Shown: piece by piece, positions 2,185 to 32,053 of the stretch | Layout of the letters: each line of letters starts with the position of its first letter | Numbering within the stretch: position 1 is the stretch's first letter | Assembly: GCA_019313695.1 (NCBI GenBank) | Contig: JAFDAS010000011.1 | Coordinates: forward strand, 1 to 38,206 | Direction of reading: 5' to 3' | DNA from: Deltaproteobacteria bacterium | Lineage (GTDB): Bacteria > Desulfobacterota > Syntrophia > Syntrophales > UBA2210 | Length of the DNA: 38,206 nt | Program-made: the position numbers and the translations under genes | The notes under the pieces: generated by a model | Seen by the model: only the letters and a program-made list of their open reading frames with translations | Told to the model about the DNA's origin: nothing | Databases searched by the model: none

Positions 2185-3429
2185 TTATTGAATTGTCATA
2201 ACCTTTCGGAACAAAGGTACCATATGATTCTGATAAATTGAATCCCAGACATAATTTTTGATAACATTCTGGTACATGTTGTGCGTTGGGATTGTTGAAA
2301 GAAACCGCAATATCCTGTCGGCAATCCGGTCAGGGTCATCGGTAAGGGAAAAAGTGCATACATGATTCTCGCCGATTTCCAGGAATGGCGGAATATCTGA
2401 GCAGGCTATGGGAAGTTTGATGACCCCGGCCTCAAGAAGCGGGAGACCGAATCCCTCCGACGAACTTGGCATAAATAGAATATCCGCGATAAAGTATAAA
2501 TCTCGAATGAATGACTGATTTGGAATGATTTCCCCCCCGTTCTTTGAGCGATACTCTGCAATGAAAATCACTTCACGAGAGATGTTCAAATCCTTAGCCA
2601 TTTTTTTCAACTCGCGGTAATATTTAGTATTTCTGGGTTCATGTGGGTCATAGGCGCCTGTGATAATGTGGCGTACATTTACCCCTCTTTTCTTAATGGC
2701 GCTAACTACATTCAGACCAAGCTCAAAATTTTTGCGGGGAATCAAGCGGGAGGGTTGGACCATGATGAAATCAACTTCATAGAGCTTTTGTTCATGGATG
2801 ATTTGCCGTGAATCCTGGCCAAGCTGAAAAGATTCTGAAGGATCGATACCGTCGGGAATAACCAATAGGTCTTTTTTAATCTTGTAAAGCTCTTGAAATT
2901 GCTTACATCGGAATTTTGAAATACAGACATAATGAATGGAAGGAATTTTTTCTTTAAGAATATTCCACGGATCCGAGCGGTACATATCAGGACAGTCAGG
3001 ATAAAAATAGATGGAATCGTGGTTCCAGCTTATTATCTTTATCGGATGGTCCTCTGATAGTTTCACAACAGCGTACGTGAGCGGGAGGTTGTAAGGCATT
3101 GTCATGACATTGTGGACAATAAGAACATCATACGAATCAATTTCTTTTTTCAGGTGTTCGTATATGACATCAACTACATACTTGAAACGATCGGCTCTTC
3201 CCGCCTTCAGCTCTTTCAGCGCGAGATCTACATTGGGGTTAAGGGAAGAAAAGATGGGGTCTATCGTTGTGGGAAATTCCCTTGAAAGTGACTCCCCCTT
3301 TCCGGAAATAACCTTAACTTCATGTCCCTGGCGATGCAACAGTAAGGCCTGCTGCTTCATTACTTCCTCTACACCCCCGACAACAGGTGGAGACGAATAG
3401 TGAAGAAGGGCAATCTTTAATTTTTTCAT
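2185..3429 (-). CDS. GT4 glycosyltransferase
   Basis: This 414-residue full-length GT-B glycosyltransferase begins MKKLKIALLHYSSPPVVGGV, with the glycine-rich loop that contacts the acceptor. FIMVQPSRLIPRKNFELGL (about residues 225-243) opens the C-terminal nucleotide-sugar domain. The segment ADILFMPSSSEGFGLPLLEAG (about 314-334) carries the E-x7-E signature (E in SSEGFG and E in LLEAG) of retaining GT4 enzymes. It starts five bases after the stop of the preceding gene with an AGGTG ribosome binding site, so translational coupling is likely. The presumed role is adding one sugar to an O-antigen, capsule or exopolysaccharide unit. Donor and acceptor cannot be told from sequence. Confidence 0.85.
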   Translation of the reverse strand: MKKLKIALLHYSSPPVVGGVEEVMKQQALLLHRQGHEVKVISGKGESLSREFPTTIDPIFSSLNPNVDLALKELKAGRADRFKYVVDVIYEHLKKEIDSYDVLIVHNVMTMPYNLPLTYAVVKLSEDHPIKIISWNHDSIYFYPDCPDMYRSDPWNILKEKIPSIHYVCISKFRCKQFQELYKIKKDLLVIPDGIDPSESFQLGQDSRQIIHEQKLYEVDFIMVQPSRLIPRKNFELGLNVVSAIKKRGVNVRHIITGAYDPHEPRNTKYYRELKKMAKDLNISREVIFIAEYRSKNGGEIIPNQSFIRDLYFIADILFMPSSSEGFGLPLLEAGVIKLPIACSDIPPFLEIGENHVCTFSLTDDPDRIADRILRFLSTIPTHNMYQNVIKNYVWDSIYQNHMVPLFRKVMTIQ

Positions 3430-3434
3430 TTCAC

Positions 3435-4694
3435 CTAAAACCTTTCAATGATCTCGGAGAGAATCCTTTCAAGTCTTTCGTAGGAGAAATGCCTTCTGGC
3501 TACTCTGTAATTCGTATCGGTCATTTGTTTTCTTTGAGAATCATCTGAAAGAATAGTTTTGACGCTATCGATCGTTCCTTTCGTGACAAGTCCATTCAGG
3601 AGAAGAAGTTCAAAGCCTTTCGGTTCAATATCAGAAATAAAGATTGTATATCGATTCACCACAATAGGCGTTTTATAATAGATCGCCTCAAGAAATGCAT
3701 TGCCGAAGCCCTCGTACATTGAAGGATAGGTTACAAGGTCTGCAGCCTGATAGATGTCTCCGATCGTATATTTGTTTTCCGGGAAGTCACCTTCATAATG
3801 GTCTGGAACTATGAGATTATCTATAGGTATTATCCTGACATTCATAAGAGAGGCATATTCCTGTACTCTTTCAAAATAATCAGTCCCCTCATCTCCGGAG
3901 GCATGCGAAACTACAAGACATGAAGGAGACAGGTCAAGCTGACTGACCAGATCAACAGAACGTTCTATGGCCTTTCTCGGTACTACGCGAGTAGGCTGAA
4001 GGATAAAGACATCATCATCCTCTAATCCCACTTCCTTTCTCAACTTGCTCAATATTTCAGAATGGGTTCTCCTTGGCGGAGAGGCATAATTATATACATT
4101 GGGAACAATGGTATTCGACACGCCAACACGATAGGACAATGCCTTGGATGCAATGGAATTGAGAACAACATGTTGAATGGACGGAAGGTTCGGGGGAAAG
4201 GCCATACGCAAATAATCACCAACTGAATTAATCAGGAATCGATCTCTCTCCCAGTAAAAATCATGATGATGCGCGATCGTCGGAATGCTTGTTTCTGCGA
4301 TATATTCCGTGACAGCAAGCCCCAGGGGGATATTCATCGGGATGGTGAGGGCATTTTCGGGAATAATCAAATCGATATCAAAGCGCCTGATGAAATCATC
4401 AATGGAATCCTTCAGCTTGTCTTTTATCCTGCGCGTAAGGTTAGAAATTTCCTTCGGACGTGTTGTTTTTCCAAAGCCGTGCGCGTTGATTTTTTTCACG
4501 TCAGGATTTCTGAAATGGGCCAGATCGGCCTGATAACTTTTATCGTCAGCCCGGTCAATTTCTCCGGCAAAAAAGAAACATGAATAGCCATTCCTTTCCA
4601 GCACATCAGTCCACTTCCTGATTTCTAGACTTACGCCATCAGTACCAGCTATACGTGTTGAGATAATGCCGATATTCCTGACTCTTCTTTCCAT
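3435..4694 (-). CDS. GT4 glycosyltransferase, first gene of operon
   Basis: This 419-residue GT-B family protein has an N-terminal domain beginning RNIGIISTRIAGTDGVSLEI, where the usual glycine-rich acceptor loop is replaced by a TDGVS version. VFILQPTRVVPRKAIERSVD opens the donor domain (about residues 230-249). AADLVTYPSMYEGFGNAFLE (about 318-337) contains the E-x7-E motif. The start is well supported by AAGGAGGG a few bases before the ATG. It is the first gene of the minus-strand operon and has a sigma-70-type promoter about 75 bases upstream (4769-4797). The two neighbouring glycosyltransferases share only the fold, so the operon probably builds a mixed-sugar surface glycan. Substrates are unknown. 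Confidence 0.85.
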   Translation of the reverse strand: MERRVRNIGIISTRIAGTDGVSLEIRKWTDVLERNGYSCFFFAGEIDRADDKSYQADLAHFRNPDVKKINAHGFGKTTRPKEISNLTRRIKDKLKDSIDDFIRRFDIDLIIPENALTIPMNIPLGLAVTEYIAETSIPTIAHHHDFYWERDRFLINSVGDYLRMAFPPNLPSIQHVVLNSIASKALSYRVGVSNTIVPNVYNYASPPRRTHSEILSKLRKEVGLEDDDVFILQPTRVVPRKAIERSVDLVSQLDLSPSCLVVSHASGDEGTDYFERVQEYASLMNVRIIPIDNLIVPDHYEGDFPENKYTIGDIYQAADLVTYPSMYEGFGNAFLEAIYYKTPIVVNRYTIFISDIEPKGFELLLLNGLVTKGTIDSVKTILSDDSQRKQMTDTNYRVARRHFSYERLERILSEIIERF

Positions 4695-4752
4695 TACTTA
4701 CCCTCCTTATGCTGGTTCTGTTGCGCCACAGGTCCCAAGTTTATCACCCACA

Positions 4753-4859
4753 TCGAATCCAGGGTTGATTCTATTTTCACAGGCCTGATAAGTCAATTCA
4801 ATTTCCCGAGATTGAGGGCTGAAACCTTTTTTTGAGAATAACATGGGCGAAATTATTAA
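4753..4859. repeat. diverged duplicate of ispG upstream region, copy A
   Basis: This stretch matches 12491-12688 in two blocks. About 50 bases around 'ttgattctattttca' match 12491-12548. About 48 bases from 'attgagggctgaaac' through 'atgggcgaaattatta' match 12640-12688, which includes the first codons of ispG. Roughly 90 bases present in the downstream copy, including a candidate ispG promoter, are missing here. The reading frame after ATGGGCGAAATT is lost at once (stop within a few codons), so it is an ispG 5' remnant and not a gene. The two copies bracket 4860-12490. Confidence 0.8.
4769..4797 (-). promoter_or_regulatory. sigma-70 promoter of the glycosyltransferase operon
   Basis: On the minus strand TTGACT (4797-4792) and TAGAAT (4774-4769) are separated by exactly 17 bases. 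The predicted transcript starts near 4762 and gives a leader of about 68 bases before the ATG at 4694. A degraded version (TTGATT, 17 bases, TAGACT) occurs at 12507-12535 in the second copy of this DNA. Confidence 0.65.
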
Positions 4860-4861
4860 TT

Positions 4862-4877
4862 GAATTCCGGGGAATTC
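4862..4877. repeat. short palindrome upstream of RAYT promoter
   Basis: GAATTCC and GGAATTC (7-base arms) are separated by GG. It ends about 23 bases before the -35 box at 4900. It could be an operator or chance; there is no further support. Confidence 0.25.
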
Positions 4878-4899
4878 CGAGGGCAGTATACTTAATTTA

Positions 4900-4928
4900 T
4901 TGACATCCTGAGATAATATTTGTATAGT
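4900..4928 (+). promoter_or_regulatory. sigma-70-like promoter
   Basis: TTGACA (4900-4905, perfect -35) is followed after 17 bases by TATAGT (4923-4928, -10 box with five of six bases matching TATAAT). It directs transcription to the right into the decayed transposase that begins at 4935. That would leave almost no leader, so either the transcript is leaderless or this is a fossil promoter. It could now also feed the cytidylyltransferase gene downstream. Confidence 0.5.
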
Positions 4929-4934
4929 AACAAC

Positions 4935-5388
4935 ATGGTAAGAATAATGCGGGTTGTTGTACGCCACATATCCCATCAAATCACTCAACGTGAGAATCGT
5001 AGTCAAGAGGCTTTTTTGTGACGAAAATTTTCATGGCTATCTTGTATTCAACGAGCCATCGGTAAAGCGCATCGACGTTATACTCGTCACATTAATTTTC
5101 GAGAAAATTTGCGAGGCCATTTCTGGCGGAAACGATTCGCCTCTTACCCGATAGAGCAAGAATTATCTTCTCGCCGCTGCCTGGTATATTGAATCGACGT
5201 CTGTAAGGGCTGTATGGTTTGAAGATCTGGTAATTATCGTTGGAGTAGTGCAGCAGCCCATATAAACGGGTATGATGATATCTTTGTGAGAGTTGGTTCT
5301 CTCTTAGATCTGATCCCGGAGTTCCCCTTTTTATTTCAAAAGGAATCATTTCTCTCTATATCATTATATTTTAAATCTCTTTAGGGCT
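4935..5388 (+). pseudogene. decayed REP-associated tyrosine transposase (RAYT, Y1/IS200-like)
   Basis: Reading one frame from the ATG at 4935 straight through three internal TGA codons gives a recognisable RAYT-type Y1 transposase skeleton. RVVVRHISHQITQRENRSQ matches the family's N-terminal 'vvxxxxyHhvtQRGnrrq' segment. AIGKAHRRYTRHINFRENLR and GHFWRKRFASYPIEQE match the 'hxxYtrxiNfrxxxxGhlwqgRF' segment. NYRWSSAAAHINGYDDIFV matches the C-terminal 'ypWSSaxaHl' segment. About 60 residues holding the HUH metal-binding motif are missing after SQEAFL. The frame ends at TAG about 5388. Catalysis is therefore impossible, and the gene is a fossil. Such transposases mobilise REP palindromes and often sit at rearrangement points. 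Here it lies at the left edge of an apparently inserted block. Reads on the opposite strand across this stretch are shadows. Confidence 0.8.
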
Positions 5389-5513
5389 TTATTCCCCGAA
5401 GCGTGCTTCGTAAGTAGTCAGCAGCTCGAACTTTCCGGTTGGGGTTATGGATACCCTGCAGCTTGCTGAGGGGTAGTTCATTGACACTAAATAATCAGGG
5501 AAAGGATATTATT

Positions 5514-6380
5514 TTGAAGTACAGCTCTCACCATAAAGAACGTGTGACCACAGCATTACTCCTTGCAGCCGGAACAGGTAGTCGCCTGTATCCCTTGACG
5601 CGGAATGAGCCTAAATGCCTGACAATAGTTAATGGCGTATCGATACTTGAACGGCTAATCTCTAGTCTGAATCAGCATGGGTTCAAGCGTCTGGTCGTAG
5701 TTACGGGACATTTGGAAAACAGTATCAGGGATTTTCTTGGAAATCGGGTAGGTGACATAGAAATCGATTATATTTTCAGTCCATTATACAAGACGACCAA
5801 TAATATCTATTCTCTCTGGATGGCACGTGAAGTTATCAATGAGCCATTTCTGCTGCTCGAAAGCGATCTTGTTTTTGATGAATCACTTCTGGATGCCATG
5901 CTGTATCCTGACAGAATAGCTGTTGCAAAGATGCGATCCTGGATGAATGGAGGATGCGTTACAATCAATCAATCTAAACAGGTTAAAGCATTTCTAGCGG
6001 GTAACGCGGACTCCTCTGGTGAGACCAAATATAAGACTGTCAATATCTACAGCATTTCACTTGCTTCGTGGCATTGTATTGTAAAAAGATTAGACCAGCA
6101 CATTTCAGATGGCAAAGTAAATGACTATTACGAAGCCGTATTTGCGGAAATGATTGCTGATGGCAGTCTCTCTTTTAAAATTGTCTCTTTTGACGGCAAG
6201 CCATGGTATGAAATAGATACTATTGAAGATCTGGCAAGAGCTGAAAAACTATTTTCATCAGACAGTTATACGACCACGAAATTTGTTACTCCTTCACAAC
6301 CCGTTTTTTCAAACATGCAATTGATCAATTCTGTGGCATCCACCCAGGAAACAACTGGAGTCTTTAATGTCACAAGATAA
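5514..6380 (+). CDS. NTP transferase, LicC/PntC-like cytidylyltransferase
   Basis: This predicted cytosolic nucleotidyltransferase has the signature LLLAAGTGSRLYPLTRNEPK shortly after the N-terminus, where the glycine-rich loop binds the NTP and the lysine contacts phosphate. FLLLESDLVFD places the metal-binding aspartate. PWYEIDTIEDLARAE near the C-terminus is the second metal site typical of LicC/PntC-type enzymes. The family charges phosphocholine, 2-aminoethylphosphonate, inositol phosphate or similar small phosphates with CTP. I prefer the TTG at 5514 because GGGAAAGGA (5498-5506) lies seven bases before it; an upstream in-frame TTG at 5439 also exists. The end overlaps the ATG at 6367 of the PLP enzyme. 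In other bacteria (from memory) the two activities can be one fused polypeptide. A CDP-alcohol phosphotransferase further along supports production of a CDP-activated headgroup. Confidence 0.75.
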   Translation: MKYSSHHKERVTTALLLAAGTGSRLYPLTRNEPKCLTIVNGVSILERLISSLNQHGFKRLVVVTGHLENSIRDFLGNRVGDIEIDYIFSPLYKTTNNIYSLWMAREVINEPFLLLESDLVFDESLLDAMLYPDRIAVAKMRSWMNGGCVTINQSKQVKAFLAGNADSSGETKYKTVNIYSISLASWHCIVKRLDQHISDGKVNDYYEAVFAEMIADGSLSFKIVSFDGKPWYEIDTIEDLARAEKLFSSDSYTTTKFVTPSQPVFSNMQLINSVASTQETTGVFNVTR

Positions 6381-7432
6381 TTATAAGACTCAATCTGAAA
6401 AATACGAATTCATCTCCGGTCAACACGGTGGTTACTATCGGCATAATTTTATAGATCATGCCTATCTTTATAATCTTTATTTCCCGCCGGCCGATGGCAC
6501 AGAATGCTCTTGCCGGGCTTATTGGCAGAATAATTGACCAACCTGCGGAAAGAATTGTTGTGGGTAACGGAGCTGCTGAATTAATAAAAATAGTATCCGG
6601 TCACATATCCAGTAAGTTAATCGTTCCAGTACCTTCTTTCAATGAATATGCCAATGCCGCGCCTTCAGGCCAGGTAGTCGAATTTCCGCTTGAGTTTCCA
6701 TCTTTCCGGTTGGATGTGGATAAATTTGCTGCGGAAACGATCAGGGTAAAAGCTGACGTAGCTGTTGTGGTAACGCCTAACAATCCAACATCTATGTTAG
6801 TTCCCAAAGCTGATCTCATTCGGCTTGCAAAAAAACTTGAGACTCATGATTGCATGCTGATTGTTGACGAATCATTTATAGATTTTGCAGAGAACCATGA
6901 TCAAATAAGCCTGGAACAAGAAATCGCAAGTTACCCGAATGTGGCAATTTTTAAAAGCATGAGTAAGGCCTACGGTATCTGTGGGCTTAGGATCGGTTAT
7001 ATGCTGACCGCAAATTCTCAATTTGCTGAAGCTGTAAGAAAGGGCGTGCATATCTGGAATATTAACGGATTTGCAGAAGAGTTTCTGCGGCTTTTGCCCG
7101 ATTACAAACAGGAATTTATCGAAAGCTGCAAACAGGTTCGATCTGACCGTGACAAGCTCTATAAACAACTTTGTGCTGTACCCGGGATGACTGTCTATAA
7201 ACCGGATGCAAACTTTATTTACTGTCGCATGCCCGATCATGCACAAAGCGGTCCTGAAATCACACGGAGATTGTTTATTGAACACAACATGTACATAAAA
7301 CACAGCCAGGGCAAAACCCAACCGGATTCCGACCGTTATATTCGCATTGCCAGCCGTACCCAAACAGAAAATCGTAAATTAGTTGCCGCATTGGCAGATA
7401 TCATTGACTCGAAAAAAGCAGAGATCTCTTAG
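6367..7432 (+). CDS. CobD/HisC-like class I/II PLP enzyme, frameshifted near the N-terminus
   Basis: This is a fold-type I PLP enzyme. VVVTPNNPTSMLVPKADLI, LIVDESFIDFAE and AIFKSMSKAYGICGLRIGY give the conserved NPTG-like segment, the PLP-ring aspartate and the Schiff-base lysine. DESFIDF is closer to threonine-phosphate decarboxylase CobD (DEAFIDF) than to histidinol-phosphate aminotransferase. Translation from the ATG at 6367, inside the end of the cytidylyltransferase gene, gives MSQDNYKTQSEKYEFISGQH and then a tract ending YLYNLYFPP at about 6489. The rest of the protein is in the next frame (from PMAQNALAGLIG), and about twenty residues seem to be missing at the joint. A shorter product starting at 6458 is possible but lacks the N-terminal arm. 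It might decarboxylate or transaminate an amino-acid phosphate feeding the CTP enzyme. Function may be lost, or the shift may be an assembly error. Confidence 0.7.
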
Positions 7433-7473
7433 TCTGGGTTATTCAAGCAGGATGAATTAAAATGAGGTTTAAT

Positions 7474-8787
7474 ATGAAAGTAGATAATAACATGTCTGTA
7501 TCTGAAATAGATTATGCATCTATAAAAGACACCTATGCGTGTCCTTGCGATGAATCAAAAATGTATGATAAATTTTTAATGCCTGTAAAATCAAAAGGGA
7601 TGTGGGTTTGGTTTGATGGAGAAGAAGAACCTTATCTTGATTTGGTTCTTAACTACAGTTCTGTAAATTTTGGGCATTGTTATCCACCTATTGTGAAAAT
7701 TGTTAAAGAAGTAATAGAAAGGGTGGATCAAATCCATTCATTTCATTCAAAAGACAAACTTGAATTAAGTGAATATCTTGCAAAAAAAGTAAGCACAGAT
7801 GAAAATTATAAAGTCTATTTTAATATAGGTGGTTCTGCGGCTGTTTCTGATGCTATTCGGTTATGTCGTCATACTACTGGGAAAAAATGTATGATCTCGT
7901 TTGACGGCTCATTCCATGGCGTGAGTTCTGCGGCGGCTTCTGTAGCAGATGACCGATTAGTAGCAAAAGAACAATATGGTATTCCCATATCGGATTACAC
8001 ATTTTCAGTTCCGTTTCCAGGCAAACATAATGATGTAACTATCAGTGATTGTTTGGAAAAGATTGAAAAGTTGATCTCGGAAAATGATATTGCCGGAATT
8101 ATTGTTGAACCGATACAAGGGGCCGGGGGATTTATCATTCCAAAAGATTCTTTTCTTTTAGAATTAAGCAATCTTTGTAAACGGTGTGACGTAAAATTAA
8201 TAATAGATGAAATACAAGTGGGTTTTGGACGGGCAGGTTCCTTTTTTGTGTATCAACAATATGGAGTAAAAAATCCGGATATCGTTCTTTTATCAAAATC
8301 AATAGCTGGCGGTTATTTTCCTGTTAGTGCCGTCATCGCACGTTCTGATTTTTTTGCCAATGTACCCCTTAGAGGGACGGCTTTTCAAGCTACTTTTAAT
8401 AACAGTTCTCTGGGACTGGGAATAGCTAATCAATTAATGAAATTAGTAGAAAAAGAGAAGATTTTTGATGGTATATTAGAAAAAGGGAAAGTCTTTTTAG
8501 AAAAATTAAGTTTTTTAAGTAAAAGCCCTTATGTCGCTAATTTAAGAGGGGTGGGGTTAGCGATTGCTTTTGATATTGTCGATCCATTATCTAAATTGCC
8601 GTCGGATAAATTAGCAAAAATATTTGTGTCTCAATGTTTAAAAGAGCATGTGATAAGTTATGCCTGTGGTGTTAATTTTAACAGTGTTAAAATTATACCT
8701 TCCTTAGTCGTTACCAATGAAGAAATAGATATAATAACTGAGAGACTTGGCAGATGTTTGCAAAGCTTTCATGACCATGTGAAGTAG
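7474..8787 (+). CDS. class III aminotransferase (GSA/ornithine aminotransferase-like)
   Basis: This PLP-dependent aminotransferase of subgroup III is about 437 residues long, full length for the family. The motif set is YFNIGGSAAVSDAIRLCRH (PLP phosphate binding), ISFDGSFHGVSSAAAS (aromatic stacking region), LIIDEIQVGFGRAGSFFVYQ (catalytic aspartate and glutamine) and LLSKSIAGGYFPVSAVI (Schiff-base lysine). The ATG at 7474 has GAGG five bases in front; a start at 7462 with AGGATG is equally possible. It is not part of an obvious haem or arginine operon, so a specialised acceptor is likely, perhaps the keto acid or aldehyde used by the neighbouring dehydrogenase. Base composition is clearly A/T-richer (about 30-35% G+C in sampled lines) than the genes before 7432 and after 10415, suggesting separate transfer with the next two genes. 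Confidence 0.8.
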   Translation: MKVDNNMSVSEIDYASIKDTYACPCDESKMYDKFLMPVKSKGMWVWFDGEEEPYLDLVLNYSSVNFGHCYPPIVKIVKEVIERVDQIHSFHSKDKLELSEYLAKKVSTDENYKVYFNIGGSAAVSDAIRLCRHTTGKKCMISFDGSFHGVSSAAASVADDRLVAKEQYGIPISDYTFSVPFPGKHNDVTISDCLEKIEKLISENDIAGIIVEPIQGAGGFIIPKDSFLLELSNLCKRCDVKLIIDEIQVGFGRAGSFFVYQQYGVKNPDIVLLSKSIAGGYFPVSAVIARSDFFANVPLRGTAFQATFNNSSLGLGIANQLMKLVEKEKIFDGILEKGKVFLEKLSFLSKSPYVANLRGVGLAIAFDIVDPLSKLPSDKLAKIFVSQCLKEHVISYACGVNFNSVKIIPSLVVTNEEIDIITERLGRCLQSFHDHVK

Positions 8788-8816
8788 AAAGATTATGGGT
8801 GGAAGTAAATAAAATA

Positions 8817-9743
8817 ATGGCCATTATGAACCTACTATATATTGGTGTTTGTAAAGAGAACCTTGAAAAATATTATCCGTCTTACATTAAAGGTGAATTT
8901 TTAACGGATACATTCACTGATGCCGAATTGGTAGATGTTGTGATACTTAAAAATATTAATGTTTTAATGGTGGATGTGTTTAATTCAACATTCACCGCAT
9001 CATTATTGCAACAATTGAAAGGGCGCATAAAACTAATAAATTTTTCGTATCAATCCATTGATTCTTTAATAGACTTAAAAGAAGCCGTGAATTGCGGCAT
9101 AGAAGTTAAAAAATTACCTGATGACATTTACTGTAATGAAGTGGCTGAGTTTGCGGTTGCTCAATTATTATGTGCCTGTAAGGGCACAATCCAATTTGAT
9201 AAATCTATTAAAAACGGAGAATGGAATCAGGCAATCAATACAAATTTTTCATTACAAGGTAAAACTCTTGGGGTTGTCGGCTTTGGGAATATTGCTAAGT
9301 GCATAATCAGGTTATGTGAAAATTGGGGGATGAATGTTTTAGTAACACGAAAACATATGAATAAAAATCAATATGTTCCGAATGTGACTTTTGTTGATTT
9401 TTCCAATTTGATTGAGAATAGTAATTATATAATTTTTGCACTTCCCCTTAATAAAAATACGTTTCAAATGTTCAATGAGAGTCATATGGAAAAGTTAAAA
9501 AAAAATTCAATTATAGTTAATATTTCACGAGGAAACGTTGTGGATGAAAACGCTATATATGAATCTTTAAGGTCGGGTAGATTATATAAGTATTGTACGG
9601 ACGTTTTTTCACAAGAACCAATCACCAGGGATCATGTGTTGCTCAAAAGTGACAAAACGATATTGTCCCCTCATGTCGCATGGGCAACTGAAGATACTAT
9701 GAAAAAGACATATAGCGTATGGTTTAACCAAACAGCCATTTAA
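8817..9743 (+). CDS. D-isomer-specific 2-hydroxyacid dehydrogenase
   Basis: This NAD(P)-dependent oxidoreductase interconverts 2-oxo and D-2-hydroxy acids. The Rossmann motif LGVVGFGNIAKCIIRLCENW is present. All three catalytic residues can be seen: arginine in VNISRGNVVDE, glutamate in CTDVFSQEP and histidine in ILSPHVAWAT. At about 309 residues it has no C-terminal ACT domain, unlike many SerA proteins, so it is either a minimal phosphoglycerate-dehydrogenase relative or a dedicated enzyme. The true start is uncertain: GTG 8799, ATG 8817 and ATG 8826 are in frame, and GGTGGAAG at 8798 slightly favours 8817. It shares the A/T-rich composition of its neighbours and follows the aminotransferase closely, so the pair could make an amino or hydroxy acid precursor for the cluster's product. 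Confidence 0.8.
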   Translation: MAIMNLLYIGVCKENLEKYYPSYIKGEFLTDTFTDAELVDVVILKNINVLMVDVFNSTFTASLLQQLKGRIKLINFSYQSIDSLIDLKEAVNCGIEVKKLPDDIYCNEVAEFAVAQLLCACKGTIQFDKSIKNGEWNQAINTNFSLQGKTLGVVGFGNIAKCIIRLCENWGMNVLVTRKHMNKNQYVPNVTFVDFSNLIENSNYIIFALPLNKNTFQMFNESHMEKLKKNSIIVNISRGNVVDENAIYESLRSGRLYKYCTDVFSQEPITRDHVLLKSDKTILSPHVAWATEDTMKKTYSVWFNQTAI

Positions 9744-9767
9744 TTGTTTATAGGATAAGAGGGCATT

Positions 9768-10415
9768 ATGGAAGAAAAGAATTTAAGTTGGTGGGGTGAT
9801 GTGACAACAAGTAATAAAGAAGCGACAATTAAGAAAAATAAAGAAATAATTGGTGAAAGAATAGAATTATTTAAAACAATTAAAGAAATTCTGGAAGACG
9901 CAGGTATTGAATTTTTTATAGAGGGCGGAACCTTGTTAGGCGCATACAGAAATGGTCAATTCATTTATCATGACAATGATATAGATACGGGTTGTGTAAA
10001 CACAGAGTTTGTTAAGGTAAAAAAAGTATTGGATAGTAAATTGCCGGATAAGTATACAAAAGTCGGGGCGTACAGCACAAAAGCATTTGGTTGTTTTCCT
10101 AAAGACGGCGAAACAATTGTTGATGCTTATGGCCAGGAATGGCCTTTGAACATGCTGGATATTTACAATTATATTTATAGTGAAGAAGAAAAATCTTATA
10201 GGTTAGATCACGATAAAGCAGGGCGTGATGCAAAAGGAAATCCAAAATGGATACCGGAAGATATAATTTTTCCCTTAAGTACTATTATGTTTGAAGGTAT
10301 AGAATGTCCCTGTCCAAATAACCCAAAGGCGTTTGCAGAACTTGAGCAAGGATATTTAGGTGAAGATTTTGAGTTTGATGAAGAAACACAACTGTTTATT
10401 AAACGTCGTTCATAG
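9768..10415 (+). CDS. LicD-like nucleotidyltransferase-fold protein
   Basis: This 215-residue protein is related to LicD and fukutin-type phosphotransferases. EFFIEGGTLLGAYRNGQFIY followed by HDNDIDTG reproduces the family core GTLLGxxRxxxfixwDdDiDig, where the aspartates bind metal and phosphate. It has no signal peptide or membrane segment. Known LicD proteins move phosphocholine or a related phospho-group from a CDP carrier to a glycan. The combination with a LicC-like cytidylyltransferase in one cluster is the classical pairing, which supports transfer of the CDP-activated group to a sugar here. The RBS AGAGGG is seven bases before the ATG. The stop TAG shares its last base with the GTG of the next gene. 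Composition is A/T-rich like the two genes upstream. Confidence 0.75.
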   Translation: MEEKNLSWWGDVTTSNKEATIKKNKEIIGERIELFKTIKEILEDAGIEFFIEGGTLLGAYRNGQFIYHDNDIDTGCVNTEFVKVKKVLDSKLPDKYTKVGAYSTKAFGCFPKDGETIVDAYGQEWPLNMLDIYNYIYSEEEKSYRLDHDKAGRDAKGNPKWIPEDIIFPLSTIMFEGIECPCPNNPKAFAELEQGYLGEDFEFDEETQLFIKRRS

Positions 10416-11056
10416 TGGTTAAACAATCCCATCAGACAAACATGCTTTCATTTGCCAGGGATCTTCCCAATATCTGTTCCCTTGCAGGTTTGCTATGTGC
10501 AATACTCGGTATTTACTTTGCTATTTTGGGCAATTTCCCCGCTGCGATAATTGGAGTCCTGTGGGCTATTGTATTTGACTGGGCTGACGGAATCGTTGCT
10601 CGCCAAATTAAGGGACGAACAGATCACCATCGAGCCTTTGGGGGCCAGCTTGATTCACTGATAGATATTGTAAGTTTTGGAGTATTCCCGGCTATTTTTC
10701 TCTTAAGCTATGGTAAGTTCAGCCCATGGTTCCTGCCGGGAGCATTTCTTATTGTCGCCGCCAGCGTTATACGATTGAGTTATTTCAACATTTTCGGCCT
10801 GATTGACGATAAAACCTACATGGGGCTCGCATTAGACAATAACGTTATTATTATTGCTTTTGTATTTTTGTTTGAAGGCTTTATTAATCATACAGTTTTT
10901 TCAATAATTCTTTATGCACTATCGATGGTATTTCTGGTTTTTAATTTATCACCTCTACGAACGCCTAAATTTTCCGGAAAATGGTTTTATGTTCTTATGG
11001 TCTACACCCTGGTATTGACAGTTATCTACGGTTGGATTCTCTGGAACAGAGTTTAA
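10415..11056 (+). CDS. CDP-alcohol phosphatidyltransferase family membrane enzyme
   Basis: This integral membrane enzyme moves a phospho-alcohol from a CDP carrier to an alcohol, releasing CMP. The hallmark D-x2-DG-x2-AR...G-x3-D-x3-D motif is visible as DWADGIVAR and FGGQLDSLID (about residues 50-88), with all catalytic aspartates present. Around it are about five or six hydrophobic helices (for example NICSLAGLLCAILGIYFAIL and VIIIAFVFLFEG). At 213 residues it has the usual length. GTG 10415 touches the stop of the LicD gene; ATG 10442 is an alternative start. Because a CTP-transferase is encoded in the same cluster, the likely donor is that enzyme's CDP product, so it may form a phospholipid-like or phosphodiester-linked molecule. 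It could instead be an ordinary phosphatidylserine or phosphatidylglycerophosphate synthase relative, but the context argues against that. Confidence 0.85.
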   Translation: MVKQSHQTNMLSFARDLPNICSLAGLLCAILGIYFAILGNFPAAIIGVLWAIVFDWADGIVARQIKGRTDHHRAFGGQLDSLIDIVSFGVFPAIFLLSYGKFSPWFLPGAFLIVAASVIRLSYFNIFGLIDDKTYMGLALDNNVIIIAFVFLFEGFINHTVFSIILYALSMVFLVFNLSPLRTPKFSGKWFYVLMVYTLVLTVIYGWILWNRV

Positions 11057-11095
11057 CAAAATTACAATATACTTGTAGTCAATCCGAGGAAACAT

Positions 11096-12367
11096 ATGAA
11101 CAAATATCGACCACTCAGGAAATGTATATCTAATAATGACAAAGAGTTAATAATTTACGGGACAGATAATTTTTCACAATTCCCGCGACGTGATGCATCT
11201 GTAAGTTCAAACTGTGACAGAGCGCTCCCTGTCGCTTGCCGGGATGACCTGGTGGTTTTACGCGGAAAACTGGACATCGAGTATCACAAATGGCTGCGCT
11301 CACATGGCCTTGGTTCGGATTATGTTGTTGAATATAAAACCCGGTCAAGGGAGATGACCCTCTCGGAACTTATCGTTAATAATCCCGAACCCATCAAAAA
11401 GATCATTCAGAAGACCGGCAGGAAACCGGTATACGTTCCATGGTTTTCAGGGCATATGGAAACTGAAGCCGCGGAAACTCTTGGTGCCGATCTTTTCGGG
11501 GCATCTGAATCTTTAACATTAAAATATAATGACAAGGCATCTTTTAGGACCATATGCCGCCAATTGGACATACCTGTTGTTGGAGGCAATTTATTTGAAA
11601 TGTACCCTGAAAATAGTCAAAATTGCCTTGAAATGAAAGAGATTATTAACAGTTATCTGTCAGGATACAAAACTGTTATTATCCGCGGCACTCTGGGTGA
11701 AGCCGGCATGTCGTTATACAAAACAGAAGGCAATGATATTTCTAAATTGTATCGACAAATAGCAGATAGCGGCGAAAAGGTGGTTATCATTGAGCCTTTT
11801 CTGAATGTCACTTCTTCTCCGACCGATCAATGGGCGATCGGAAGAGATGGGAAAATAACCACTCTTGGAATGCGGGAACAAATATGCGAAAGAGGCATGG
11901 TACATGTAGGTACCCTCAAAGGAGAAAAAACTTCTCCGGACATTTTAAATTACATCACCGAGACATCTATGAAAATTGTAAACAATATGGCTGAATTCGG
12001 ATATAGGGGTGTGGCTGGTATCGATTATATTGTGTCGGATGATAGTATATTCCCCGTTGAGAATAACGCCCGTTTTAATGGTTCTACTTATGTGAGCATG
12101 GTCGTAGACAACATTGAAAAATTGACATACCCCATTCCATACTGGAAATTCATAAAGATCAAGACAGCCCCATGCACATTTCCGGAACTCACAGAGCGTA
12201 TTAACCCGGTACTTTATGACGGCAATAAATTAAATTCCGTTTTCCCTTTTAACTGTGACGCATTACCAGAAACAGGCGTTTTTGACGTTATACTCTTAGC
12301 CCAAAACCTCGATCAGATTTTATATCTGGAAAAATCATTGAAAGAAATGGGCGTTAAAAGGGACTGA
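11096..12367 (+). CDS. ATP-grasp ligase-like protein
   Basis: This 423-residue protein is probably of the ATP-grasp superfamily with a pre-ATP-grasp N-terminal region. PVYVPWFSGHMETEAAETLG (about residues 110-129) precedes ESLTLKYNDKASFRTICRQL, the usual 'K...R' nucleotide lid entrance. TVIIRGTLGEAGMSLYKTEG looks like the flexible glycine loop, and GVAGIDYIVSDDSIFPVENN plus ARFNGSTY gives the E-x-N-x-R metal-binding end of the fold. Such enzymes join a carboxylate to an amine or thiol via an acyl-phosphate. It is preceded by GAGGAA at the right distance and closes the plus-strand cluster, so it may add an amino acid or small peptide to the amino-alcohol made upstream. I recognise no specific family member, and the last 60 residues have no known motif. 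Confidence 0.65.
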   Translation: MNKYRPLRKCISNNDKELIIYGTDNFSQFPRRDASVSSNCDRALPVACRDDLVVLRGKLDIEYHKWLRSHGLGSDYVVEYKTRSREMTLSELIVNNPEPIKKIIQKTGRKPVYVPWFSGHMETEAAETLGADLFGASESLTLKYNDKASFRTICRQLDIPVVGGNLFEMYPENSQNCLEMKEIINSYLSGYKTVIIRGTLGEAGMSLYKTEGNDISKLYRQIADSGEKVVIIEPFLNVTSSPTDQWAIGRDGKITTLGMREQICERGMVHVGTLKGEKTSPDILNYITETSMKIVNNMAEFGYRGVAGIDYIVSDDSIFPVENNARFNGSTYVSMVVDNIEKLTYPIPYWKFIKIKTAPCTFPELTERINPVLYDGNKLNSVFPFNCDALPETGVFDVILLAQNLDQILYLEKSLKEMGVKRD

Positions 12368-26948: not shown

Positions 26949-27632
26949 ATGACTATTAAGAAAGACCATAGACACGGGCATCGCGGCCGACTCCGAGAAC
27001 GTCTTCTCAAAACTGGGCGGCAGGCCTTTGCGGATTATGAACTGCTGGAGTTGTTGCTAACCTATACCATTCCAAGAAAGGATACAAAACCAATAGCCAA
27101 AAGACTCTTAAAGCGATTTGGTTCTTTCGCGGCAGTATTTGATCAGACAGGGGAGCAACTGCAGGAAGTGGAAGGCGTAGGCCCACAGACAGCCGTGTTT
27201 TTGTTTGCAATTCGAGAAGTTATGGTCAGATACCTGGAGCAGGAAGTTGAGTATGCCGAAACAATTTCCTCACCTGAAGATATCGCCGGGTTTGTGCGCA
27301 CCCATTTAGGCGCAACGTCACGTGAATGTCTGATGATTCTCTACCTCAATGATGCCAATCGTCTTATGTATCATGTAATAGTCTCTGAAGGCACTGTAGA
27401 TCGTGCCCCGTTTTATCCACGGGAAATCCTGAAGACCGCTTTACTTCGTGACGCAACCGGCCTGATCATGGCGCACAATCATCCCAGCGGTGATCCGATT
27501 CCTTCTGAAAACGACCATATAATTACCTCACGTATGGAGAAACTTGCTGCTGAATTCGAAATTAAAGTCCTTGATCACTTAATTGTGACACCACACAGGG
27601 TCTTCAGCCTTAAGACGGGAAGGTTATTATGA
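26949..27632 (+). CDS. radC: RadC family protein (MPN/JAB domain)
   Basis: RadC-type protein of 227 residues. The N-terminal helix-hairpin-helix part includes HRGRLRERLLKTGRQAFADY and VEGVGPQTAVFLFA. The C-terminal JAB/MPN+ domain shows the metal-binding signature H-x-H-x7-S-x2-D as LIMAHNHPSGDPIPSENDHI. The biochemical role of RadC is unsettled despite its 'DNA repair' name, and it is frequently found inside mobile and defence islands. Here its last four bases overlap the hsdR start (ATGA), a strong sign of translational coupling to the restriction system. There is no strong ribosome binding site before the ATG at 26949, so the exact start is less sure. Confidence 0.9.
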   Translation: MTIKKDHRHGHRGRLRERLLKTGRQAFADYELLELLLTYTIPRKDTKPIAKRLLKRFGSFAAVFDQTGEQLQEVEGVGPQTAVFLFAIREVMVRYLEQEVEYAETISSPEDIAGFVRTHLGATSRECLMILYLNDANRLMYHVIVSEGTVDRAPFYPREILKTALLRDATGLIMAHNHPSGDPIPSENDHIITSRMEKLAAEFEIKVLDHLIVTPHRVFSLKTGRLL

Positions 27633-30600
27633 GCAATTTCAACTTTCTTGCATCAACCTGGCCTGTGCTTGCTGAATTAGGAGATTTGGCAGAAAGGAAC
27701 CTGTATATCGATTCCAACACATCCCTCATAAAACTGCGCATGCTTGCGGAAACCCTGGCAAAGTATCTCCTCGCTTATGAGAACCATGAAGACCCGATAG
27801 ATGGAAAGCAGATTTCAAGAATCAATCTATTGAGCAGTAATGGCATTGTTTCTGAACCACTGGTCTCACTTTTTCACTCTCTAAGAAAAACAGGGAATAA
27901 GGCCTCCCATGAAGTCTATGGCACAACAGAAGAGGCACAAACCCATTTGCAGTTTGCCTTCCGTCTGGCAGTCTGGTTCAGGCAAACCTATGGCGACGGG
28001 AAATATAGTTATCAGGATTTTATCCCACCGGAACAGCCCTCGGATGATGCTGAACAACTCACCGCTTTTAAGCAGGAACTAAATTGGCGCACCGCACAGT
28101 TAGAGGTAGTTCAAGACAGGCTTCAAGAGGAGCTTGAAACCTTGAAAACATTGGAAGTGTCGGAGCAAACAAGAGCAGCACGTCGCAAGCTTTCGGCTCG
28201 CGCTGCCAATGAAATGAATCTTTCAGAGTCTGAGACACGTCGGTTGATAGACCAGCAGTTGGGTGTTGCAGGCTGGCACGTGGACACACAGAACCTTCGC
28301 TATGCAAAAGGAGCCCGCCCGGAAAAAGGGACATACAAAGCTATTGCAGAATGGCCTACGGCTTCGGGACCGGCAGATTATGCGCTGTTTGTAGGGATGA
28401 ATCTGGTGGGTGTTGTTGAGGCCAAGAAAAAAGCAAAAGATGTTGTATCAGATTTAGTTCAGGCTAAGCGTTATGCAAGAGACGTTGAGATCAAAGGGGA
28501 AGAACGTTTTGCAGGTGGCCCCTGGGGCGAATATAAAGTTCCGTTGCTTTTTGCCTCAAATTCTCGCCCCTATCTAAAACAGTTGGAACAAAAGTCGGGC
28601 ATTTGGTTTCTCGACGTGAGACGGTCGACCAACCACCCGAGGCCATTACAAGCCTGGTATACCCCACAGGGGATCATAGAAATTTTGCAACAGGACCAGG
28701 ACAAGTCAGAAGCCAGACTCAGAAAAGAGCCTTTTGGTTATCTCGGGTTACGAGATTATCAGATCCGCGCTGTGAACAAAGTAGAAGAAGCGCTTGAAAA
28801 CGGGGAAAGGGCCATGCTGCTTGCCATGGCAACCGGAACAGGAAAGACCCTTACGGCCATTGGCCTTCTCTACAGACTGATCAAAACCGGTCGATTTCGC
28901 CATGTTTTATTCTTGGTGGACCGCAATGCTCTCGGCGAGCAGGCAGAAGATAAATTCAAAGAAACACGGCTTGAAGACCTCCAGACATTTGACCAGATCT
29001 TTGATCTGAAAGGGGTCAAAACGATCAAATCCGAAGAGACCACGCGAGTTCATATTTCCACGGTACAGGGGATGATCCATCGTATAATGTTCAACACTGA
29101 TGATGATGCAATCCCAACTGTGGATCAGTATGACTGTATTGTAGTGGATGAAGCTCATCGTGGTTACACACTCGATAAAGAACTGGGTGAAGTAGAGCTT
29201 CTCTACCGTGATGAAAAAGATTATATCAGCAAATATCGCAGGGTTCTGGAATATTTTGACGCCGTAAAAATAGGGCTTACAGCAACCCCGGCGCCTCACA
29301 CGATCGAGATATTCGGAAAGCCGGTTTTCACCTATACCTATCGGGAGGGTGTTATTGATGGTTGGCTTGTGGATCACGAACCGCCCCATCAGATCGAAAC
29401 CAGGCTTAAAAAGAAAGGAATAACCTGGAAGAAAAGCGATACAGTTCCGGTTTATGATCCCGCCACCGGACTTATTACCAATATCGAAGATATTCCGGAT
29501 GATATCACGTTGGATATTGAACATTTTAACAAGCTGGTTATTACGGAGAAATTTAACCGCACGGTCGCCAGGGAGCTGGTCCGGGAACTCGACCCTTATG
29601 GAGAAGAAAAAACCCTGATTTTTGCTACAACCGACGACCACGCCGACCTTGTGGTTAAGGTTCTCAAGGAAGAGTTTGAAAAAGAAATGGGGGAAGTGGA
29701 TGATGATGCCATTGCCAAGATAACCGGGTCCATCGATAAACCCATAGAAATGATCCTCAAATTCAAAAACGAGAAATTTCCCACCATAGCGGTTACAGTG
29801 GATCTTTTAACTACTGGTATCGATGTGCATGAAATCTGCAATCTTGTTTTTTTGCGCAGGGTTCGTTCCCGCATTCTGTATGAGCAGATGCTTGGAAGGG
29901 CAACACGGCTTTGCGATAGAATCAAGAAAGATCATTTCAATATCTTTGATGCAGTTGGGTTGTATGAGGCCCTCGAACCGGTGACGAATATGAAAGCGGT
30001 GGCACCCGGCCCGATGGTCACCCTGCAGAAACTGGCCGAAGAATTGTTCAACATGGAATCTGAAGCGCACCAGAGGGCACATATTGATCAGTTGATTGCG
30101 AAGTTGTGGAGAAAAGCCCGGGTCATAGGCGACAAGGAACGCAATGTCTTTGAAACTCTTTCAGGCGGGGAAACCCTTCAGCATTTTATAGAATCCCTCA
30201 AAGGAAGGGATGCCAGCCAAGTTAAGAGGATAATAAAAGGGAAACAAAACCTGCTGGCTTTTTTAGATGAAAACCGTCACCAACCACGCAAACAACTCAT
30301 TTCTGACCATGAAGATGAACTGGTCTCCCATAAGCGAGGCTATGGCAAGGGAGAAAAACCTGAAGATTATTTGAACGAATTCAAGGCATTCATCATAGAC
30401 AACATGAATAAGATTCCGGCTTTGGCCATAGTCTGCCAGCGACCCCGCGAGCTTACACGACAGACCCTGAAAGAGTTGAAGTTGGCCCTCGACCAGCATG
30501 GCTACACAGAACCCAACCTGCGAACGGCGTGGCGAGAATGGAAAAACGAGGACATTACTGCCGACATCATTTCCTTTGTCCGGCGGCAGGCGCTGGGCGA

Positions 30601-30871
30601 TCCTTTGGTCAGTCATGAAGACCGGATTCGTAAGGCAATGAAAAAGGTGTATTCTCTTGAAAAGTGGACAAAGATACAAAGACAATGGCTGGAACGTATT
30701 GAAAAGCAGTTGATCGCGGAAACGGTCTTTGAGCGAAAAGATTTTGACAAAGGCGCTTTCAAGGCACATGGTGGTTTTGCCCGGCTTAACAAGATTTTCC
30801 AGGGAAATCTCAATGCTGTTTTGGATGAAATCAATAATGCCCTTTATCCTGAAGAAAGGAAATATGCGTAG
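27629..30871 (+). CDS. hsdR: type I restriction enzyme, R subunit
   Basis: HsdR (1080 residues) is the ATP-driven translocase and nuclease of a type I restriction-modification complex. The N-terminus (about 1-130) resembles DUF4145. A PD-(D/E)xK-like nuclease follows (GPADYALFVGMNLVGVVEAK, about 246-266). The SF2 helicase core has Walker A MLLAMATGTGKTLTAI (about 394-409) and Walker B VDEAHRGYTLD (about 505-515). Helicase motif III is KIGLTATPAPHTIEIFG, and motif VI is in YEQMLGRATRLCDR. The helical C-terminal part looks like the EcoEI R subunit. The start is supported by GGAAGG before the ATG and by the four-base overlap with radC. hsdM and hsdS follow after one intervening gene. Confidence 0.92.
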   Translation: MSNFNFLASTWPVLAELGDLAERNLYIDSNTSLIKLRMLAETLAKYLLAYENHEDPIDGKQISRINLLSSNGIVSEPLVSLFHSLRKTGNKASHEVYGTTEEAQTHLQFAFRLAVWFRQTYGDGKYSYQDFIPPEQPSDDAEQLTAFKQELNWRTAQLEVVQDRLQEELETLKTLEVSEQTRAARRKLSARAANEMNLSESETRRLIDQQLGVAGWHVDTQNLRYAKGARPEKGTYKAIAEWPTASGPADYALFVGMNLVGVVEAKKKAKDVVSDLVQAKRYARDVEIKGEERFAGGPWGEYKVPLLFASNSRPYLKQLEQKSGIWFLDVRRSTNHPRPLQAWYTPQGIIEILQQDQDKSEARLRKEPFGYLGLRDYQIRAVNKVEEALENGERAMLLAMATGTGKTLTAIGLLYRLIKTGRFRHVLFLVDRNALGEQAEDKFKETRLEDLQTFDQIFDLKGVKTIKSEETTRVHISTVQGMIHRIMFNTDDDAIPTVDQYDCIVVDEAHRGYTLDKELGEVELLYRDEKDYISKYRRVLEYFDAVKIGLTATPAPHTIEIFGKPVFTYTYREGVIDGWLVDHEPPHQIETRLKKKGITWKKSDTVPVYDPATGLITNIEDIPDDITLDIEHFNKLVITEKFNRTVARELVRELDPYGEEKTLIFATTDDHADLVVKVLKEEFEKEMGEVDDDAIAKITGSIDKPIEMILKFKNEKFPTIAVTVDLLTTGIDVHEICNLVFLRRVRSRILYEQMLGRATRLCDRIKKDHFNIFDAVGLYEALEPVTNMKAVAPGPMVTLQKLAEELFNMESEAHQRAHIDQLIAKLWRKARVIGDKERNVFETLSGGETLQHFIESLKGRDASQVKRIIKGKQNLLAFLDENRHQPRKQLISDHEDELVSHKRGYGKGEKPEDYLNEFKAFIIDNMNKIPALAIVCQRPRELTRQTLKELKLALDQHGYTEPNLRTAWREWKNEDITADIISFVRRQALGDPLVSHEDRIRKAMKKVYSLEKWTKIQRQWLERIEKQLIAETVFERKDFDKGAFKAHGGFARLNKIFQGNLNAVLDEINNALYPEERKYA

Positions 30872-30873
30872 GC

Positions 30874-32031
30874 ATGGATGATTCAGAAAACAGTGACAAT
30901 TCGGTTGTTGTTATAAACGATTATAATGATTTTGCGAAGAGTATCTATGAGTTAGTGGCATCAGCCCGCAGGCAGGCTGCACGATCTGTTAATGCCATAC
31001 TTACTGCTACCTGCTGGGAAATCGGGCGGCGAGTTGTTGAATTTGAGCAGGAAGGAAAAGAGAGAGCGGAGTATGGCAGCGCTCTTCTTCAGCGCCTTTC
31101 AAAAGATCTGACGAAACGTTTTGGCAGGGGATTTGGTGTTGATAACCTCCAGAGGATGAGGGCTTTCTACCTGGAATATAAACCTGAGACCATTTACGCG
31201 ACACTGTCGCGTAAATCCGAAGAGCAGAGTCATCAGATAAATTCCCAGGCAGCGGCCCGGATTTTCACACCGAAAGAATTGGCCTCTGTTTTCCCTTTGC
31301 CGTGGTCCGCGTATGTGCGATTGCTGTCTGTTAAGAACGATCAGGCCCGCGCGTTTTATGAAGAAGAATCCCTGCGTGGTGGCTGGTCGCTTCGCCAGCT
31401 TTCCCGGCAGATATCTTCAAATTTCTATGAACGCACCCTCCTTTCTCAAAACAAAGCCAGGATGCTGGAAAAAGGCTCGATCCCCAAGACAAGTGAAACC
31501 ACTACACCAGAAGAGGAAATCAAAGACCCATACATCCTGGAATTTCTAAATCTCAAAGATGAGTATTCGGAAAATGATCTCGAAGAAGCGTTGATCCGTC
31601 ATCTTGAAACATTTTTGCTTGAGCTGGGTGGTGATTTTGCCTTTATCGCCCGCCAGAAACGATTGCGTGTCGGCAATAAATGGTATCGTGTTGATCTGGT
31701 TTTTTATCACAGAAGTCTGCGCTGTCTGGTTCTTATTGATCTTAAAATAGGGGAATTCTCACATGCCGATGCCGGACAGATGCATCTTTACTGCAATTAT
31801 GCGAAAGAACATTGGACTCGTAAAGAAGAAAATTCGCCGGTAGGGCTGATCCTTTGCGCTGAAAAAGATCGTGCCGTAGCCAAATATGCCCTTGAAGGGC
31901 TGCCCAATAAAATCCTTGCATCTGAATACCAAGTTGCATTGCCTACGGAAAAAGAATTGGTTGAAGAGCTTTTAAAAACGCGTAGATTATTAGACTTGAG
32001 GCAAGCTGTGGAAATGAAAGACGGGGAGTAA
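30874..32031 (+). CDS. DUF1016/YhcG family PD-(D/E)xK nuclease
   Basis: This 385-residue YhcG-type protein has an N-terminal DUF1016 helical domain (WEIGRRVVEFEQEGKERAEY, GFGVDNLQRMRAFYLEYKPE, WSAYVRLLSVKNDQARAFYE). It has a C-terminal PD-(D/E)xK nuclease, where WYRVDLVFYHRSLRCLVLID and LKIGEFSHADAGQMHLYCNY provide the aspartates and the lysine (DLVFYH...IDLK). Such proteins often lie inside type I restriction loci. The role is undecided; a helper or anti-restriction-escape nuclease has been suggested from context. It starts two bases after the hsdR stop and ends 22 bases before hsdM, so it is an integral part of the operon. Confidence 0.85.
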   Translation: MDDSENSDNSVVVINDYNDFAKSIYELVASARRQAARSVNAILTATCWEIGRRVVEFEQEGKERAEYGSALLQRLSKDLTKRFGRGFGVDNLQRMRAFYLEYKPETIYATLSRKSEEQSHQINSQAAARIFTPKELASVFPLPWSAYVRLLSVKNDQARAFYEEESLRGGWSLRQLSRQISSNFYERTLLSQNKARMLEKGSIPKTSETTTPEEEIKDPYILEFLNLKDEYSENDLEEALIRHLETFLLELGGDFAFIARQKRLRVGNKWYRVDLVFYHRSLRCLVLIDLKIGEFSHADAGQMHLYCNYAKEHWTRKEENSPVGLILCAEKDRAVAKYALEGLPNKILASEYQVALPTEKELVEELLKTRRLLDLRQAVEMKDGE

Positions 32032-32053
32032 TTTATAAAGAAAGGAAACGTGC

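Follow-up and report, generated by a model that had tools for sequence, protein, structure and literature searches.

Activation of an amino-alcohol phosphate by cytidine triphosphate (CTP) and its subsequent transfer from a cytidine diphosphate (CDP) donor is the principle of both the phosphocholine decoration by LicC and LicD and the Kennedy pathway. For the polar lipids of Archaea, synthesis from CDP-archaeol and a free alcohol is the accepted view. LicC-type cytidylyltransferases are also known in combination with a CobD-like pyridoxal phosphate (PLP) enzyme, since FrbH of the FR-900098 biosynthesis carries in addition a PLP decarboxylase domain; to our knowledge no CDP-alcohol phosphotransferase belongs to the FrbH pathway. 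The cytidylyltransferase activity of FrbH is directed at a phosphonate of an amino acid (PMC6697681). Furthermore, the signature of the CDP-alcohol phosphotransferase family comprises four catalytic aspartates (PMC8633023), and a review of archaeal headgroups makes no mention of CDP-ethanolamine (PMC9385802). The present work concerns a gene cluster on a 38,206-nucleotide stretch of DNA from a deltaproteobacterial draft genome (contig JAFDAS010000011.1, in the following the window), in which a LicC/PntC-like cytidylyltransferase, a CobD-like PLP enzyme, a CDP-alcohol phosphotransferase and an ATP-grasp ligase are encoded together.

With moderate confidence we regard the first three as a module for the activation and transfer of a CDP-amino-alcohol, to which the ligase is usually added and of which the window holds a laterally acquired copy with an insert and a disrupted CobD gene. 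In LicC/LicD decoration and the Kennedy pathway the amino-alcohol phosphate is supplied by a kinase, whereas here it would arise by decarboxylation of a phospho-amino acid; moreover, the constant transferase of the core is not LicD. The pairing of a LicC-type cytidylyltransferase with a CobD-like enzyme, often fused in the relatives found here (NTP-CobD fusions), is shared with FrbH as a pair of activities, but FrbH has a phosphonate substrate and belongs to a phosphoenolpyruvate (PEP) mutase pathway.

The core genes in Archaea

A search with the ATP-grasp protein of the window revealed relatives at 63–87% identity in four public contigs: L004 from a deltaproteobacterial metagenome-assembled genome (MAG), L005 and L006 from archaeal MAGs and L007 from a Desulfobacteraceae MAG. 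Two archaeal carriers have the public titles Methanosarcinaceae MAG and Euryarchaeota MAG. In L005 the cytidylyltransferase, the CobD-like enzyme, the CDP-alcohol phosphotransferase and the ATP-grasp protein are encoded by four head-to-tail genes. The first three are contiguous and keep their order at 20 loci of one methane-producing archaeal order (one locus ends at a contig edge), and the flanks of these loci differ except among close relatives. With a constant order and varied flanks, the co-occurrence of the core genes is far beyond chance, and all four genes are under purifying selection. The core CobD-like protein is present in 22 of the 186 genomes of this order, 84–100% identical to the L005 protein (one is a fragment; 84–96% for its archaeal orthologues), and the ATP-grasp gene or a remnant in 21 of the 186.

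In most carriers the ATP-grasp gene follows the trio; in L028 a transposase-like open reading frame (ORF) lies in between. Behind the trio of L105, L106, L107 and L108 there is no such gene, and just a remnant exists in L056, where the trio is tandemly duplicated (3829–10151). On the L007 contig the ATP-grasp gene is present without the trio, and the L007 genome yielded no close CobD either. Because five carriers have lost the ligase or keep just a piece of it, and because it occurs without the trio in L007, the trio is an indivisible unit and the ligase an optional partner.

All seven plus-strand ORFs of the cluster were confirmed in their positions and in the families named by the original prediction (Table 1; ORF list and profile searches). 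This prediction had combined them into one pathway and had named a lack of co-occurring homologues in other genomes as one of its refutations. As far as sequence comparison can show, none of the refutations that it named came true. Such homologues exist for the trio and usually for the ligase, but only these four genes recur together elsewhere and the other three do not, so that the cluster is a core plus an insert. It is true that no described pathway has exactly this set, yet this is partly a consequence of its composition of core and insert.

Table 1 Genes of the cluster in the window
Gene product	Position	Strand	Place in the cluster	Basis
LicC/PntC-like cytidylyltransferase	5514..6380	+	core gene 1	PF00483/PF12804; LicC/PntC structure matches
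CobD-like PLP enzyme, broken (readable piece 6458–7432)	6367..7432	+	core gene 2	alignment with L005 protein
Class III aminotransferase	7462..8787	+	insert	PF00202; GC 34.5%
D-2-hydroxyacid dehydrogenase	8799..9743	+	insert	PF02826; GC 32.2%
LicD-family protein	9768..10415	+	insert	PF04991; GC 34.3%
CDP-alcohol phosphotransferase, extended 12-residue loop	10415..11056	+	core gene 3	PF01066 (CDP-OH_P_transf); motif; tree
ATP-grasp amino-acid-ligase-like protein	11096..12367	+	usual fourth gene, optional	LdmS-like (NCBIfam), PDB matches

Relationships of the encoded enzymes

The cytidylyltransferase contains a motif of the LAAGxGxRxxPxTxxxPK type, LAAGTGSRLYPLTRNEPK, and its archaeal orthologues are about 64–72% identical over the conserved part. 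Its best solved relatives are LicC (1jyk, E 1.5e-16) and then PntC (6pd1, E 9e-14), ahead of the weaker sugar enzymes, so that the earlier assignment as LicC/PntC-like appears well chosen. For the CobD-like enzyme the best match is TIGR01140, and the nearest proteins are of the threonine-phosphate-decarboxylase type. It does not classify as a CobD of the cobamide pathway, since 175.5 bits do not reach the curated cut-off of 290.6 and the core proteins form a clade of their own in the tree, from which the CobD/HisC-type paralogues encoded at other places in these genomes are separate.

The motif of the window phosphotransferase, DWADGIVAR-x12-GGQLDSLID, has all four aspartates of DxxDGxxAR(n)GxxxDxxxD, a pattern shared by all archaeal copies. 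Fold and signature are the same in PssA and archaetidylserine synthase. However, the loop between AR and GxxxDxxxD comprises 12–13 residues in every cytidylyltransferase-linked relative examined and 7–8 in every ordinary synthase examined. In addition, the window enzyme possesses RLSYF instead of the RLARF of PssA, with a tyrosine in place of the second arginine of the pair investigated in MjPSS, and R-L-[SA]-Y-F is common to all cytidylyltransferase-linked phosphotransferases examined. In a tree with long branches, which places the Erwinia/Priestia group elsewhere, the enzyme joins the rhizobial cytidylyltransferase-linked enzymes (93/92, slightly under the starred level) and stands apart from the phosphatidylserine (PS)/archaetidylserine synthase clade (95/90). 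Clade, loop length and motif led us to reject an identity as PS or archaetidylserine synthase, in line with the original prediction. The extended loop marks a recognisable subclass of CDP-alcohol phosphotransferases and may predict the type of donor in bacterial clusters to which no product is assigned.

The ATP-grasp protein reaches 21 bits in Pfam, slightly under the cut-off of 23.2, and is LdmS-like in NCBIfam (E 4.5e-13); PDB matches are 7r8p (E 2e-6) and BesA (8yi6, E 1.5e-4). The amino-acid ligases LdmS and BesA are its nearest ATP-grasp relatives by sequence, but the match is mostly in the C-terminal half. E322, N324 and R326 are invariant in 12 aligned rows, and the conserved Glu/Asn metal ligands are kept.

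Candidate pathway and product

Gene content, order, conservation and family membership are seen directly, as are the lesion and the insert treated below, and from them we infer all substrates, the order of the steps, the acceptor and the role of the ligase. Cytidylyltransferase and CobD-like enzyme would convert a phospho-amino acid, most likely O-phosphoserine and next phosphothreonine, to a CDP-amino-alcohol such as CDP-ethanolamine; cytidylylation possibly precedes decarboxylation, as in FrbH. The membrane phosphotransferase, dedicated to this step, would then detach the amino-alcohol phosphate from CDP and place it on a hydroxyl acceptor, for which a lipid alcohol (archaeol or diacylglycerol) is the first choice and a soluble alcohol is possible. 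Finally, in most carriers, the ATP-grasp ligase would couple an amino acid or another acid to the amine. A succession of decarboxylation, formation of the CDP form, transfer and ligation had already been proposed; it is a reasonable conjecture as far as the core is concerned but does not hold as a seven-gene route, nor with the ligase as an obligatory step, given the five trio carriers in which the ligase is absent or a remnant.

Several points weigh against this pathway. The TIGR01140 match of the CobD-like enzyme lies under the cut-off, and its fold includes transaminases too. The ligase without trio in L007 may indicate another substrate, and the AlphaFold2 models were too poor to use (mean predicted local distance difference test score 48 for the ligase and 55 for the phosphotransferase). 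Furthermore, the carriers already have a serine route to ethanolamine lipid, as PF02666 (PS decarboxylase) is present in 20 of 22, and PssA-type CDP-alcohol phosphotransferases exist elsewhere in the carriers sampled, which would make a plain ethanolamine lipid a redundant product. These genes point to a product other than, or additional to, ordinary phosphatidyl- or archaetidylethanolamine.

The product might also be a small soluble phosphodiester, either a compatible solute or a natural product and maybe aminoacylated afterwards, with a soluble alcohol as acceptor; a comparable case is the use of CDP-inositol in di-myo-inositol phosphate synthesis. We consider this possible but clearly less probable than not. 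The cytidylyltransferase matches the bifunctional solute enzyme IPCT/DIPPS (E 9e-20), and clusters of Erwinia, Rahnella and Priestia that contain NTP-CobD and the same phosphotransferase type together with ATP-grasp genes and major facilitator superfamily exporters resemble natural-product clusters. A soluble acceptor would also ease the movement between Archaea and Bacteria, the lipids of which differ. However, the nearest solved relatives of the phosphotransferase are lipid headgroup enzymes, and known CDP-alcohol phosphatidyltransferases accept archaeal and bacterial lipids (PMC8633023; PMC9385802), so that an interdomain transfer is compatible with a lipid product as well. One of these clusters, on a plasmid of Priestia megaterium (L060, 2811–10915), combines an NTP-CobD fusion and two ATP-grasp genes with a CDP-alcohol phosphotransferase that lacks an annotation. 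It also includes an additional 1-deoxy-D-xylulose 5-phosphate reductoisomerase, a copy that might confer self-resistance.

In Bacteria the pair of cytidylyltransferase and phosphotransferase stays constant, while the donor source varies between PEP mutase, GHMP kinase and NTP-CobD fusion. The rhizobial plasmid clusters L089, L090 and L092 combine the cytidylyltransferase and an extended-loop phosphotransferase with PEP mutase or GHMP kinase and with asparagine-synthase-like genes. As rhizobial relatives of both CobD and the phosphotransferase are located in PEP mutase clusters and the cytidylyltransferase is structurally close to PntC, a phosphonate pathway (CMP-aminoethylphosphonate or similar) had to be considered. 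The activation-transfer pair and the type of phosphotransferase are indeed the same, but the phosphonate source of those clusters is missing here: PEP mutase (PF13714) was found in none of the 22 carriers, whereas the same search was positive in 9 of 14 control genomes. The phosphonate route is therefore rejected as highly improbable, which extends the earlier statement, made for the window, to all carriers tested.

According to a further proposal, partly contained in the original prediction, the CDP-amino-alcohol decorates a surface glycan and LicD has the central role. LicD occurs in the insert of the window and in L111, a contig of viral origin (IMG/VR) on which two LicD genes and an ATP-grasp gene accompany an NTP-CobD fusion (5317–10685). 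Moreover, a polysaccharide locus of L109 (5077–9147) contains an NTP-CobD fusion with a CDP-glycerol-type glycerophosphotransferase as its neighbour; L109 belongs to an archaeal genome of 4.1 Mb from the same order. Nevertheless, glycan decoration is unlikely, because the archaeal core loci contain neither LicD nor conserved glycan genes, their constant transferase is a CDP-alcohol phosphotransferase, and L111 and the window have dissimilar proteins (22% identity for LicD, no similarity between the ATP-grasp ligases). For the main pathway proposed above, in contrast, these combinations count as support, since they are most simply explained if NTP and CobD make the CDP-amino-alcohol and different transferases can replace one another in using it.

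For the pathway to a CDP-amino-alcohol proposed above, a more specific form can be suggested tentatively. Some methanogens may possess, beside the CDP-archaeol route, an undescribed CDP-amino-alcohol headgroup pathway in which the extended-loop phosphotransferase class places an aminoacylated amino-alcohol phosphate on archaeal lipids. If this is true, a headgroup activated in the Kennedy style from a phospho-amino acid would represent a second logic for archaeal headgroups, and the movement between domains would make the headgroup module portable. The conserved archaeal module is the actual finding and seems undescribed: no description matched in the open-access literature searched, although a subscription paper is possible, and open-access literature on phosphoserine decarboxylase, CobD with LicC and Campylobacter CDP-ethanolamine yielded nothing useful.

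Insert, lesion and origin of the window copy

Downstream of the cluster lie housekeeping genes of bacterial type, first ispG and proS (recognised by inspection) and then relA/spoT, RNase PH and HAM1, which identifies the window as a bacterial contig; the draft genome consists of 282 contigs. Class III aminotransferase, 2-hydroxyacid dehydrogenase and LicD sit exactly between the CobD and phosphotransferase genes, which abut in L005 (5875/5875). None of the three is present in any archaeal core locus examined. Their GC content is 32–35%, compared to 40–42% for the core genes and 43–49% for the remainder of the window. Close relatives were found neither for the aminotransferase in 296 nor for LicD in 246 other sampled genomes of the phylum. 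An insert of different origin is therefore the best interpretation of the three genes, and the aminotransferase and dehydrogenase as pathway members, as well as LicD as a core member, have to be given up. LicD itself (PF04991, 51.7 bits, cut-off 22.6, short best match) may be a second CDP-alcohol transferase using the same CDP donor as the core.

The CobD-like gene had been taken as an intact member of the set, and a 53-bp deletion was overlooked. The alignment with L005 places this gap between 6490 and 6491, and the frame is shifted by it. The true N-terminus (ATG at 6367) is out of frame with the remainder, which can be read from a substitute start, the ATG at 6458. The pieces in the different frames match residues 2–43 and 58–373 of the L005 protein; residues 44–57, among them positions invariant in all archaeal copies, are gone. 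Since the remainder is still 83% identical, with a nonsynonymous divergence (dN) of 0.10 and a synonymous divergence (dS) of 0.80, the lesion is either a recent loss or an assembly fault. With CobD disrupted, the pathway in the window probably fails or is fed by salvage.

The chance that the deletion is real and the window copy a decaying relic without function, which would be compatible with any function of the module, is in our estimate slightly below even. Apart from the frame shift and the AT-rich insert between core genes, the absence of the module from a sample of 40 relatives and from 296 further sampled genomes of this phylum fits a relic. However, the remaining core genes have open frames and show purifying selection, and a single MAG contig may be misassembled. 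The ATP-grasp gene occurs solely in the window among 297 sampled genomes of its phylum, and the eight ATP-grasp carriers in the sample of the archaeal phylum all belong to one order. The tree of the ligase joins the window with L004 and places the two next to the archaeal clade, not within it; L007 lies outside as well. Judged from these relationships, an interdomain transfer of the module, in one direction or the other, is clear.

Directly upstream of the cluster, minus-strand glycosyltransferases are encoded (104–811 and 2185–4694), two of which are distantly like mannosylglucosylglycerate synthase. A 48% identical copy of the protein at 3435–4694 is located in L004, about 6 kb from the L004 module. 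Further downstream, the region 26949–34938 contains a RadC-like gene and, behind it, the genes of a type I restriction-modification system (HsdR, DUF1016/YhcG nuclease, HsdM and HsdS).

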